From Actinomyces ruminicola (GTDB taxonomy: Bacteria > Actinomycetota > Actinomycetes > Actinomycetales > Actinomycetaceae): DNA of 64,000 nucleotides. Made by a program: the position numbers and the translations under genes. Location of the stretch: assembly GCF_900103885.1 (NCBI RefSeq), contig NZ_FNIM01000009.1, positions 1 through 64,000 of the forward strand, written 5' to 3'. This document shows positions 53,001 to 55,986 of this stretch, piece after piece; within the stretch, counting starts at the first letter, position 1, and every line of letters starts with the position of its first letter. The notes under the pieces were generated by a model that saw only the letters and a list, made by a program, of their open reading frames with translations, was not told the DNA's origin and searched no databases.

Positions 53001-53035
53001 AGCCGCTCCTTTGCGTAGACGATTCTGTGACAAAA

Positions 53036-53064
53036 AGCGTAGGTCCCACAGTTTGTCCTGTCAA
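53036..53064 (-). promoter_or_regulatory. Consensus sigma-A promoter of the sugar ABC operon
   Basis: Reverse strand: TTGACA (53064-53059), 17-nt spacer, TACGCT (53041-53036). Transcription should start near 53029, giving a leader of about 30 nt. It is the best -35/-10 pair in the window. No clear operator palindrome is seen, and no LacI-type regulator is encoded nearby. Confidence 0.75.
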
Positions 53065-53191
53065 TAGGTTCATGTCGGGGTCTGTTCCGGTGTCCACAGG
53101 GGCGGCTCACGACAGGGGGCGAGGCGGTGGCTGTGGACGGCCAACCGTCCAAGTCCCATTCATGTCGCCGGGCGGCGGTAGGTTCGCCCAC

Positions 53192-54169
53192 ATGAGTGAG
53201 CACCCCAGCCGGCCCGACGCCGCACCCGCCGTGACGACCAAGGTCGATGCCGTACCGCCCGCCGACGGCGTGCGCCCCACGGGCCCTGGTGACTCCGCCC
53301 GTGCCACGGGTCCCGGAGGGTGCGGCAACCGTCGCGGCTCGGGGCGCACCGCGCTGTCGCCGTCGCGGGCCAAGGACTTCATGCAGTGCCCGCTGTTGTT
53401 CCGCCTGCGCACCGTGGACCGTATCCCGGAGCCCGGCTCCCTGGCCACCCATAAGGGAACGCTCGTGCACGCGATCCTGGAGCGGCTCTACGACCTGCCG
53501 GCCCGCGAGCGCACCCGCGAGGCCGCGCTCGCGATGCTGCCCGGCCAGTGGGAGGCGCACCGGGAGAAGAACCCCGCAGTGATGGCCCTGTTCGCGGACC
53601 CCGCCCAGGTCGACCCCTGGCTGAATGAGGCCCGCGAACTGGTCGGCGCCTATTTCCAGCTGGAGAACCCCACGCGGCTGGAGCCGGCCGAGCGGGAGCT
53701 GTTCGTGCAGGCGGAGACGCGCGACGGGCTGCTGCTGCGCGGCTTCGTAGACCGCCTGGACGTGGCCCCTAACGGCGCCATGCGCGTGGTCGACTACAAG
53801 ACCGGGCGCTCCCCGGGCCCGCGGTTCCAGGAGGAGGCGCTGTTCCAGATGCGCTTCTACGCCCTGGTGCTCTGGCGTCTGCGCGGACGGGCCCCATCAC
53901 GCCTGCAGCTCGTCTACCTGAAGGATGGCCGCACCCTCACCCACGATCCGCGGCTTCCCGAGCTGGAGACCACCGAGACCAAGCTGGCTCGCATCTGGGA
54001 CGAGGTGGAGGACTGCGCCGCCGCGGGCGAATTCGCCCCGCGCCGTTCCCGCCTGTGCGACTGGTGCGCCTACCACGCCCAGTGCCCGGTATTCGGCGGG
54101 ACCACTCCCGAACTGCCCGCCGACGGCGTCGAACGGCTGCTCACCGCCAGGCGCGCACCCGCGGCGTAG
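53192..54169 (+). CDS. RecB-like PD-(D/E)XK nuclease with Fe-S cysteines
   Basis: A 325-residue nuclease-like protein of the RecB/Cas4/AddB-type family. It begins LSPSRAKDFMQCPLLFRLRT (first cysteine), continues HKGTLVHAILERLY, and has the active-site signature LRGFVDRLDVAPNGAMRVVDYKTGR with the Asp and the DYK motif. Near the end CDWCAYHAQCPV supplies three more cysteines, so a 4Fe-4S cluster is likely. Orthologues (mycobacterial Rv2119 type) adjoin trmI. ATG 53192 is favoured since TAGGTT lies 7 nt upstream; the frame is open to 53027 but without a ribosome site. Role in DNA repair is inferred. Confidence 0.88.
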   Translation: MSEHPSRPDAAPAVTTKVDAVPPADGVRPTGPGDSARATGPGGCGNRRGSGRTALSPSRAKDFMQCPLLFRLRTVDRIPEPGSLATHKGTLVHAILERLYDLPARERTREAALAMLPGQWEAHREKNPAVMALFADPAQVDPWLNEARELVGAYFQLENPTRLEPAERELFVQAETRDGLLLRGFVDRLDVAPNGAMRVVDYKTGRSPGPRFQEEALFQMRFYALVLWRLRGRAPSRLQLVYLKDGRTLTHDPRLPELETTETKLARIWDEVEDCAAAGEFAPRRSRLCDWCAYHAQCPVFGGTTPELPADGVERLLTARRAPAA

Positions 54170-54302
54170 GCGCGATCCCGACCGGGCAGTCTCGCAAAGT
54201 GATACGCCCTTGGCGCGCAGTCGCCGACCGCGCCTAGCATCTCGGCCACGGCCCCCATTAACAGTCGGCGGCCGCCGTCAATCGCAATCCCCTGCACGGA
54301 AG

Positions 54303-54395
54303 ATGAATCTCATGAGCTCCCAGATCGCAGCCCGCAACCTTCGCGCCCGGCGCGGAGCGTGTTGCTGCATGCTCGACCTGGCCAGGGCTCAGTGA
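54303..54395 (+). CDS. Cys-Cys-Cys leader peptide (candidate cysteine attenuator)
   Basis: A 30-codon frame reads MNLMSSQIAARNLRARRGA, then CCC, then MLDLARAQ and stop. Three consecutive cysteine codons (TGT TGC TGC, 54360-54368) are unusual in a protein with few other Cys. The next gene is a thiosulfate importer followed by TusA. Polycysteine leader ORFs upstream of sulfur genes act as cysteine-responsive attenuators in mycobacteria; that parallel is the basis of this call. A second ATG at 54312 could be the start. TAGCAT near 54236 is a candidate -10. The segment 54170-54302 otherwise holds nothing clear. Confidence 0.6.
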   Translation: MNLMSSQIAARNLRARRGACCCMLDLARAQ

Positions 54396-54607
54396 GGCAG
54401 CACTCGAATACGCATACCCTGCTTCTTCCCCCGGCCCGCCGACGCCGCGGCACGCGCCGGTAGGCACCCCTGGTCAGGCCTCAGCCCCTTTCCCCACAGT
54501 CGCGGGAGGGTTACGCCTGTGGCCGACGGCGCATTACGCCGAAGCAGTCGCCCCACCTGCGTCCTTTACCACCAGACCGCCCTCGGCGGTCGGACCAAGG
54601 ACTTCCA
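54396..54607 (+). promoter_or_regulatory. Leader between Cys-peptide and tsuA, possible attenuator
   Basis: This 212-nt gap has inverted repeats that could be antiterminator/terminator or SD-masking structures: CCACAG with CTGTGG, CGGCG-CATTA-CGCCG, and GACCGCC-CTC-GGCGGTC (54575-54591), the last just before the tsuA ribosome site AAGGA. No U-rich run follows any stem, so Rho-dependent or translational control is more likely than intrinsic termination. Confidence 0.4.
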
Positions 54608-55717
54608 ATGATTCTCACCGGACTAATCGTCGGCGGCCTCCTCGGGCTTGTGCTCCAACGCGGCCGCTTCTGCATCACCGGCGCGTTCCGAGACCTGTGG
54701 GTCTCCGGCTCCTGGCGGTGGATGACTGCCTTCCTGCTGGCCGTAGCCGTGCAAGCCGTCGGCGTCGTCATGCTCACGGCGACCGGCACCATCGCACCGG
54801 AGGTGCCCACGCTGTCGGTCGTGGCGACGGCGGTCGGCTCCCTGCTCTTCGGCGTCGGCATCGTACTGGCCGGAGGCTGCGCGACCGGCACCTATTACCG
54901 GGCCGGGGAGGGCCTGGTGGGCTCCTGGTTCGCGCTCGTCGCCTACGCCCTCACGGCGGCGGCCTCCAAGACCGGCGTCCTGGCGCCGGTGACTACGTGG
55001 GTCAAGGGCCTGTGGACCACCGAGCTGACCACCCTCCCGGCCACCGTCGGCCTGCCCGACTGGACCGGCGTGCTCGTGCTGGCGGCAGCCGTTGCCCTCC
55101 TGGTGCGGTGGCAACGCCGTCTTGCCGCCGCCAAGCCCGCGCCCCTGCAGCTGACTCCTCAGCGCACGGGATTGAACCACCTGTTGTTCGAGCGCGCCTG
55201 GAATCCGCTGGTCACCGGCGCGCTGGTCGGGCTGGTGGCGATCATCGCCTGGCCGGCCTCCTGGGCGAGCGGACGGCCGGACGGGCTGGGGATCACCACG
55301 CCGTCGTCGAACCTCGTCGGCCTCCTGGTCACCGGCGATTACGACCGGCTCGACTGGGGCGTGCTGCTGGTACTCGGCATTCTCATCGGCTCCCACCTCA
55401 GCGCCCGTGCGGCGGGAGAGTTCCGCGTCCGCGTCCCCTCCGCCACCGTTATCCGCCGCTCTATCGCCGGCGGCGTGCTCATGGGCGTGGGCGCCGCCTG
55501 GGCCGGAGGCTGCTCCATCGGCAATGCCCTGGTGCAGACCTCCCTGTTGTCCTGGCAGGGCTGGACCGCGCTCGTCTTCCAGGTTCTAGGCGTGGGCGCG
55601 AGCGCATACGTCACCCTCATCCGGCCCCGCAACCGGCGCCGCGCCGCACGTGCAACCGCGGCCTCACCGGCACCTGAGCACGCAGGAGAATCCGCGGGCG
55701 CGCTGGTGGCGAGCTGA
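54608..55717 (+). CDS. tsuA: Thiosulfate/sulfur importer, YeeE/YedE (TsuA) family
   Basis: Integral membrane protein of 369 residues with ten or more helices. Conserved YeeE family blocks surround membrane cysteines: LQRGRFCITGAFRD, GIVLAGGCATGTYYRAGEG and GAAWAGGCSIGNALV. In characterised YeeE these cysteines relay thiosulfate across the membrane, and a TusA-like partner (YeeD) assists. The TusA gene 47 nt downstream fits this. AAGGA lies 6 nt before the ATG. Expression is likely governed by the upstream Cys-rich leader. The C-terminal 40 residues are basic then Ala/Pro-rich and cytosolic. Confidence 0.92.
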   Translation: MILTGLIVGGLLGLVLQRGRFCITGAFRDLWVSGSWRWMTAFLLAVAVQAVGVVMLTATGTIAPEVPTLSVVATAVGSLLFGVGIVLAGGCATGTYYRAGEGLVGSWFALVAYALTAAASKTGVLAPVTTWVKGLWTTELTTLPATVGLPDWTGVLVLAAAVALLVRWQRRLAAAKPAPLQLTPQRTGLNHLLFERAWNPLVTGALVGLVAIIAWPASWASGRPDGLGITTPSSNLVGLLVTGDYDRLDWGVLLVLGILIGSHLSARAAGEFRVRVPSATVIRRSIAGGVLMGVGAAWAGGCSIGNALVQTSLLSWQGWTALVFQVLGVGASAYVTLIRPRNRRRAARATAASPAPEHAGESAGALVAS

Positions 55718-55764
55718 GCCCGCACCCTGGTCATCCCATCCCACTCGCAGAAAGGAACATGAAT

Positions 55765-55986
55765 ATGCGCACCGTGTTGGAGACCGAGGGCCTGGTCTGC
55801 CCGTTCCCCGTCATGGAGGCAGAGGAGGCTATGGCCGACCTGACCGACGGAGACGAGCTGGTCATTGCCTTCGACTGCACCCAAGGCACCCAGTCCCTGC
55901 CCGCCTGGGCGGCTGACAACGGCTACACCGTCACCGAGTTCACCAAGACCGGTGAGGCCTCCTGGAGCATCACCGTCCGCAAGTAG
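55765..55986 (+). CDS. TusA-family sulfur carrier
   Basis: A 73-residue sulfur-transfer protein. The family motif CPFPVMEAEEAM near the N-terminus supplies the persulfide-carrying Cys 12 (CPxP), followed by DLTDGDELVIAFDCTQGTQS, which replaces the usual DxG region and adds a second Cys. It likely takes sulfur from the YeeE-type importer next door. ATG 55765 is chosen over 55759 because AAGGA lies 8 nt upstream instead of 2. It is last of the operon; a strong hairpin follows 8 nt after the stop. Confidence 0.9.
   Translation: MRTVLETEGLVCPFPVMEAEEAMADLTDGDELVIAFDCTQGTQSLPAWAADNGYTVTEFTKTGEASWSITVRK

Follow-up and report, generated by a model that had tools for sequence, protein, structure and literature searches.

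The window analysed here, a 64,000-nt stretch of Actinomyces ruminicola DNA, contains a predicted thiosulfate uptake unit on the forward strand. Its first gene, tsuA (54608..55717, +), encodes a YeeE family thiosulfate importer and matched the NCBIfam TsuA model with an E-value of 2.4e-107 at 359 bits, which is below the curated cut-off of 645, and the Pfam Sulf_transp model at 318.7 bits (cut-off 27). The second gene, tsuB/yeeD (55759..55986, +), encodes a TusA-like sulfurtransferase; its scores were 105.8 bits against the NCBIfam YeeD model, below the cut-off of 147.5, and 60.1 bits against Pfam TusA (cut-off 28.6). A tsuB match lies 3' of tsuA in 48 of the 50 loci examined, and the other two, which carry distant tsuA homologues (L079 and L080), showed no tsuB match behind tsuA. 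Among the best 80 of 563 candidate loci, the closest named tsuA is that of A. glycerinitolerans (91% identical), followed by those of other Actinomyces. A plasmid origin was rejected on the lack of any match in the plasmid collection. An ORF at window positions 53027-54169, which we take to resemble a PD-(D/E)XK/RecB-type nuclease gene, precedes the leader unit described below; the same gene lies 5' of a tsuA remnant in another genome (locus L023 of G016), where the tsuA N-terminus and the leader are lost and the remnant is followed by a tsuB tail in another frame.

Upstream of tsuA, the frame 54303-54395 encodes MNLMSSQIAARNLRARRGACCCMLDLARAQ followed by a stop, with Cys codons at 54360-54368 and a distance of 212 nt from the stop to tsuA. 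The earlier note had read this as a 30-codon, three-Cys frame preceding tsuA and a TusA gene; the frame, the Cys codons and the gene order stood, and the start at 54303 gave way to the inner, conserved ATG at 54312. Since relatives keep that ATG together with a GGA-type ribosome site, and the outer ATG is missing at its place in several of them (L003, L004 and L006, all of the same clade as the window), 54312 is very probably the true start. The leader ORF so defined, MSSQIAARNLRARRGACCCMLDLARAQ and a stop (54312..54395, +), has 27 codons, with the putative regulatory Cys codons at positions 17-19 (54360..54368, +; Cys19 at 54366-54368), and is preceded by the ribosome-binding site GGAAG (54298..54302, +), in keeping with the GGAG, GGAAG or GGA found before the conserved ATG in Actinomyces leaders. 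A cysteine attenuator is expected to include a short ORF that carries conserved Cys codons and has a start and a ribosome site of its own, and such an ORF appears to be present; the genes downstream, tsuA and tsuB, are of the sulfur- or cysteine-supply type that such an attenuator would control.

A three-Cys frame is common in this GC-rich window and not rare by itself: 16 runs of three Cys codons occur over the six frames, seven of them behind a possible start, and, counted from the earliest start available, two other such frames are 46 and 41 codons long, compared with 156 codons for the leader frame (27 from the conserved start). Because these frames arise by chance in this DNA, a single sighting was insufficient and conservation had to decide. 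tsuA was detected in 24 of 59 relatives, including 23 of the 37 genus genomes, and in 44 genomes of a family set of 200; the two sets combined gave 30 Actinomyces genomes that have tsuA or a remnant of it, and the tsuA match was partial or split in six (G006, G012, G016, G018, G200 and G212). Comparison of the frame and its Cys codons among relatives, the check on which the earlier note had made itself dependent, came out in its favor. The leader was present in 29 of the 30 genomes, read directly in 28 and found by profile in G006 (G166, with a match at a contig start, was left out of the upstream reading), and the only genome without it, G016 (L023, G016:C25), carries a decayed tsuAB remnant. 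Cys19 is invariant in the 15 non-redundant leader peptides of alignment A1, together with Met1 and Leu23 as the only other such residues. A profile of the leader gave one strong match (E at most 2.6e-9), located at tsuA, in 22 of the 23 tsuA-bearing genus genomes, with best E-values reaching 1.5e-14 and the next match in any genome at 0.007, and revealed a leader in none of the 14 tsuA-less genus genomes; as the profile was built from leaders of the genomes searched, its strong matches there are largely by construction, whereas the absence elsewhere is not. Judged from these genomes, the leader frame is conserved and tied to tsuAB. A chance frame inside a conserved upstream region, for which the abundance of three-Cys frames would leave some room, is contradicted by the 29/30 conservation, by the profile E-values, with no strong match in tsuA-less genomes, and by the invariant Cys19, and is in our judgment extremely improbable.

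Most of the leaders read are 27 codons long, and the peptides are 26–96% identical to that of the window. Omega-like values of 0.85 in the window's clade (few changes), 0.50 in the largest clade and 0.31 in a third clade (few changes) suggest a moderate amino-acid constraint on the peptide. The conserved length, and the constraint seen in two clades, would also suit a functional small protein, e.g., a metal- or sulfur-binding partner of TsuA, rather than a sensor. Such a role seems improbable, however, with no more than three residues invariant and with variation in the C-terminal part: a one-base deletion right after the Cys codons in L011 alters the C-terminus, with the usual C-terminal frame lost and Cys19 and the RNA helix described below retained, and L032 has a tail that differs from those of the others. 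In addition, it is the nucleotides of that helix that covary, and the tsuA leaders of other genera have Cys in common but no sequence by profile.

A putative promoter, TTGGCG-N19-TAGCAT (54210..54240, +; -35 at 54210-54215 and -10 at 54235-54240), is suggested by clade conservation. The pattern TTG[G/A]C-N19-TA..AT is retained in all five sequences of the window's clade, and another clade has TTGC-N17/18-TACAGT or TACATT; no such pattern was made out in the sequences beyond those two clades, and in a promoter consensus scan no site reached the threshold. In the clade of L007–L015, L028, L029 and L033, a GGTTGACAACC-like palindrome (with variants) is conserved downstream of the putative -10, about 30–45 nt 5' of the leader ATG, and could be an operator.

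An unguided covariation scan of 19,800 six-pair windows, performed on 17 representatives of the 27-leader alignment, ranked one helix first, referred to here as helix P. Its 5' strand, CCTGGCCAGGG (54377..54387, +), lies within leader codons 22-26, and its 3' strand, CCCTGGTCAGG (54468..54478, +), is an element ending in C[C/T]AGG that sits 73–83 nt past the leader stop in the window and was aligned in 26 of 27 sequences, being lost in L032. Shifted versions of helix P filled the top six places of the scan, with scores of 1.25 to 0.44, and the next window scored 0.04. A second scan, made after re-alignment without L032 (18 representatives of 26), ranked helix P first again at 0.93 versus 0.53 for the next, with L005, L021 and L031 misaligned at the element. 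L032 was left out of both scans because its leader tail and element differ, and it is absent also from the competing-helix search and the forced-helix folding; it was counted in the best-pairing, shuffle-covariation and masking measures. L076 (G200) was left out of alignment A2, since its leader peptide equals that of L003.

On A2, 86.8% of helix P cells were paired versus 81.5% in shuffles, 21 cells were changed on both sides versus 8.7, and the covariation score was 0.286 versus 0.204; none of 500 shuffles, which do not keep relatedness, was as high in any of these three. Sliding helix P by 1–3 columns in six versions reduced pairing to 14–61%, and all six fell below it on these three measures. 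The two remaining measures of the five were no better than shuffles (52/500 for pairs with a double change and 403/500 for further pair types), and single-sequence scores of helix P were mostly no better than shuffles. Helix P was the best-scoring pairing in 22 of 27 sequences, and another pairing outscored it in L008, L013, L017, L018 and L032. Analysis of competing structures revealed a helix that uses the helix P 3' strand in 9 of 11 sequences of one clade and in L013 and L021; a general competitor was rejected on account of this limited occurrence.

Where it is the best-scoring pairing, helix P starts 9–11 nt downstream of the first nucleotide of codon 19, and in L021 the pairing reaches further back. 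Going by ribosome footprints, a ribosome whose A site holds the Cys19 codon would have its leading edge at this distance. A cysteine attenuator is expected to contain a conserved RNA structure placed for reading by a stalled ribosome, and helix P is such a structure.

We consider, with a probability of roughly 75% on comparative grounds, that the leader acts on tsuAB as a cysteine-responsive attenuator mediated by the ribosome. Translation would start from the leader's own ribosome site; with ample Cys-tRNA the ribosome would run to the stop, passing over the helix P 5' strand, and with scarce Cys-tRNA it would stall at Cys17-19, with helix P at its leading edge. The choice of fold would then set tsuAB expression, most plausibly by exposing the ribosome site of tsuA or by denying Rho access to the C-rich leader, and thiosulfate import would go up when cysteine is short; both this sign of regulation and the step from helix P to output are what we infer. 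Granted an attenuator, the likelier arrangement is that the stall permits helix P and that helix P is the ON fold; the converse, in which helix P is part of an OFF fold that the stalled ribosome disturbs, is possible and comes second. Taken as an account of the whole locus, this sign variant, with helix P as the OFF fold prevented by a ribosome stalled in the Cys codons, appears unlikely. In its favor, unconstrained folding mostly forms helix P (mean pairing of 0.65 across 26 sequences), and the first pairs lie where a ribosome holding Cys19 in its A site would have its edge. However, of the roughly 10 pairs of helix P, a ribosome positioned at Cys17-19 would reach no more than the first few, and forcing helix P does not raise masking of the tsuA site.

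This masking concerns a stem adjoining the tsuA ribosome site, which the earlier note had pointed out and which is indeed there: GTCCTT (54561-54566) pairs with AAGGAC (54597-54602) around GACCGCC/GGCGGTC, and the hairpin (54561..54602, +) is predicted to mask the site. The tsuA ribosome site of the window was unpaired at 0.08 versus 0.66 in shuffles (p 0.005), with p-values of 0.005–0.095 across the window's clade, and over 27 sequences it was unpaired at 0.38 versus 0.57 in shuffles. The masking is weak or absent outside two clades, and it is not present in L021 or L032; it does not simply follow the state of tsuA, since L021 is split and unmasked, L032 whole and unmasked, and L006 split and masked. 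Folding of the whole leader with ribosomes at the start, the Cys codons or the stop, or with helix P forced or blocked, hardly shifted the masking: the mean unpaired value of the tsuA site was 0.37 versus 0.35 (Wilcoxon p 0.03), a difference too small to matter. Footprint and forced-helix folding was rejected as proof of a switch because no consistent effect emerged. No intrinsic terminator was found at the locus, and searches with Rfam covariance models gave no match around the leader of the window (E values up to 1 considered), no match at the tsuA leaders of L001 and L010, and nothing relevant in ten selected loci.

The untranslated leader (54396..54595, +) is C-rich and G-poor, with a (C-G)/(C+G) skew of 0.21 that lies at the 97.6th percentile of the window, and is a possible Rho-binding region. 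The skew was positive in 39 of 39 leaders (mean 0.22; these are related, not independent), compared with 0.00 on average for 12 further upstream regions within the window, one of which reached 0.2 or more (0.25). Together with the lack of a detected intrinsic terminator and of a folding switch at the tsuA ribosome site, this skew raises, as a variant of the output step, a Rho-type attenuation in which the leader would only set Rho loading on the C-rich untranslated 200 nt and masking would be incidental. Rho was also suggested for the cys leaders of Mycobacterium by Seliverstov et al. 2005, who call the prediction weak (PMC1262725). We hold this variant tentatively: skew is no test of Rho, the control of 12 regions is small and includes the one at 0.25, and in the window's clade the tsuA ribosome site is masked more than expected by chance.

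A second cysteine leader precedes cysK in the same genome. The cysK gene of this genome (G000; TIGR01139, 395 bits, cut-off 351) follows a leader frame with a GAGGAGG site that encodes MTAMSVMRVMSPCCCQCR and a stop (G000:C14:93800-94083; L137, L248), and a leader frame of this type occurs at 29 of the 30 cysK loci fetched from 36 genus genomes with cysK, L141 being without it. A bulged hairpin, conserved almost to the base, starts at the cysK leader stop; a double change is present in 3 of its 18 pairs, and covariation says little for a hairpin that is near-invariant. Eight cysK loci searched gave no Rfam match to it. A covariance model of the hairpin matched in 35 of 37 genus genomes (not in G013 and G019), each time within about 400 nt upstream of cysK when positions were compared by eye, and also, at the corresponding position, in one other family (G044, E 2.7e-4); because 29 genomes gave the model, the independent finds are only six further genus genomes and G044. 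In the window's own genome, the cysK helix starts 8 nt downstream of the first nucleotide of the final Cys codon. The tsuA and cysK leaders are independent, as several genomes with the cysK leader are without tsuA. A cysteine leader on cysK and a covarying helix after the Cys codons of the tsuA leader fit cysteine attenuation, and the earlier proposal of such attenuation for a thiosulfate uptake operon finds support at the level of comparative genomics in leader conservation, helix P and the cysK leader. metNIQ of the same genome was dropped as a third target, no Cys leader having passed the filter in 5 kb around metQ.

Outside Actinomyces, a candidate leader containing Cys was seen at 11 of the 20 tsuA loci of other genera viewed upstream; two of these candidates, at L034 and L043, are weak. 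The NCBIfam model NF042934 scored over its cut-off of 27 before tsuA in L039 and L040, from two genomes of a sister genus (32.9 and 31.5 bits), and the tested leaders of other genera had no sequence in common with the Actinomyces leader by profile. The survey of named genomes covered the best 80 of 563 candidate tsuA loci, 67 of them outside Actinomyces, and used a fixed leader filter that misses one-Cys leaders. Within these 80, 6 of 36 actinobacterial loci outside Actinomyces passed (shuffles 1.5, at most 3), as did 2 of 29 Firmicutes loci (shuffles 0.5, at most 2) and neither of two proteobacterial loci; among the six actinobacterial passers, those of Oceanitalea, Brevibacterium and Tessaracoccus alone were leader-like by inspection. 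The tsuA leader of Brevibacterium luteolum (L022/L186), MFRLHLFSRRVIDLMYVCTCGCCS, resembles the Ms4527A family below its cut-off (17.5 bits versus 45). Given the patchy occurrence in the filter counts, the leader was rejected as a general feature of tsuA and is a feature of lineages; tsuA leaders have perhaps been acquired more than once.

A wider reading, for which we see the chances as about even, is a ribosome-sensed cysteine regulon of Actinomyces, in which cysK and, where present, tsuAB would carry unrelated leader peptides with Cys codons about 8–11 nt before a conserved helix (long-range at tsuAB, and a structured RNA without Rfam match at cysK), so that Cys-tRNA alone, without a repressor common to both, would coordinate the uptake of thiosulfate sulfur with its use. 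The proposed tsuAB attenuator would itself carry cysteine-sensing attenuation over to the uptake of inorganic sulfur through TsuAB and to Actinomyces as a genus. The natural compensatory changes of helix P would offer a handle on the output step of actinobacterial cysteine leaders, and the cysK leader of Actinomyces would be a second, more conserved RNA for such work.

Candidate cysteine leaders were described by Seliverstov et al. 2005 for cys operons of Mycobacterium and P. acnes and for cbs of B. longum; Actinomyces naeslundii is in their genome list, and section 6 of the paper gives no cysteine leader for it (PMC1262725). Those leaders and the Actinomyces leader share runs of Cys near the stop of a short ORF and have no conserved terminator; the former belong to other genes and species, and no conserved hairpin was found in them (PMC1262725), whereas the Actinomyces tsuA leader has a covarying helix. 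The metL leader of S. lividans, MSTTSDRTPATEATTTPGARCMCRRMCAF, which precedes metNIQ and is described as leaderless in PMC8079986, is of similar length and has a similar Cys/Met/Arg-rich end, but scored -10.9 bits against the Actinomyces leader profile, no better than shuffles. Homology of the Actinomyces tsuA leader to the leaders of other genera, to cysK leaders or to metL was rejected on profile scores at the shuffle level, and the resemblance among these leaders is thus one of composition. The window's leader peptide matched no NCBIfam or Pfam family; in it and seven other Actinomyces leaders, neither NF042934, NF042936 and NF042933 nor the Ms4527A and Ms5788A models gave a match, and NF042934 ('putative leader peptide', cis_reg_atten) was over cut-off in none of the 37 Actinomyces genomes searched. 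Titles and abstract starts among the literature matches listed, with subscription journals thinly covered, contained no report of these leaders.

In mycobacteria, polycysteine leaderless sORFs reportedly exert translation attenuation of cysteine and sulfur genes, and a ribosome stalled in the Cys codons of these leaders prevents the OFF fold. PMC13236596 and PMC9094748 mention the polycysteine-sORF result of Canestrari et al. 2020. The mycobacterial sORFs and the Actinomyces leader are both short ORFs with Cys codons 5' of cysteine or sulfur genes, and they differ in two respects. The former are leaderless, according to the title of the paper, whereas the latter has a ribosome site and promoter-like sites upstream, so that, by sequence only, its transcript would not start at the start codon of the short ORF; and the target of the Actinomyces leader, unlike those of the mycobacterial sORFs, is thiosulfate import. 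As far as can be told from the DNA, the Actinomyces leader would work like the mycobacterial polycysteine leaders while standing outside that leaderless set.
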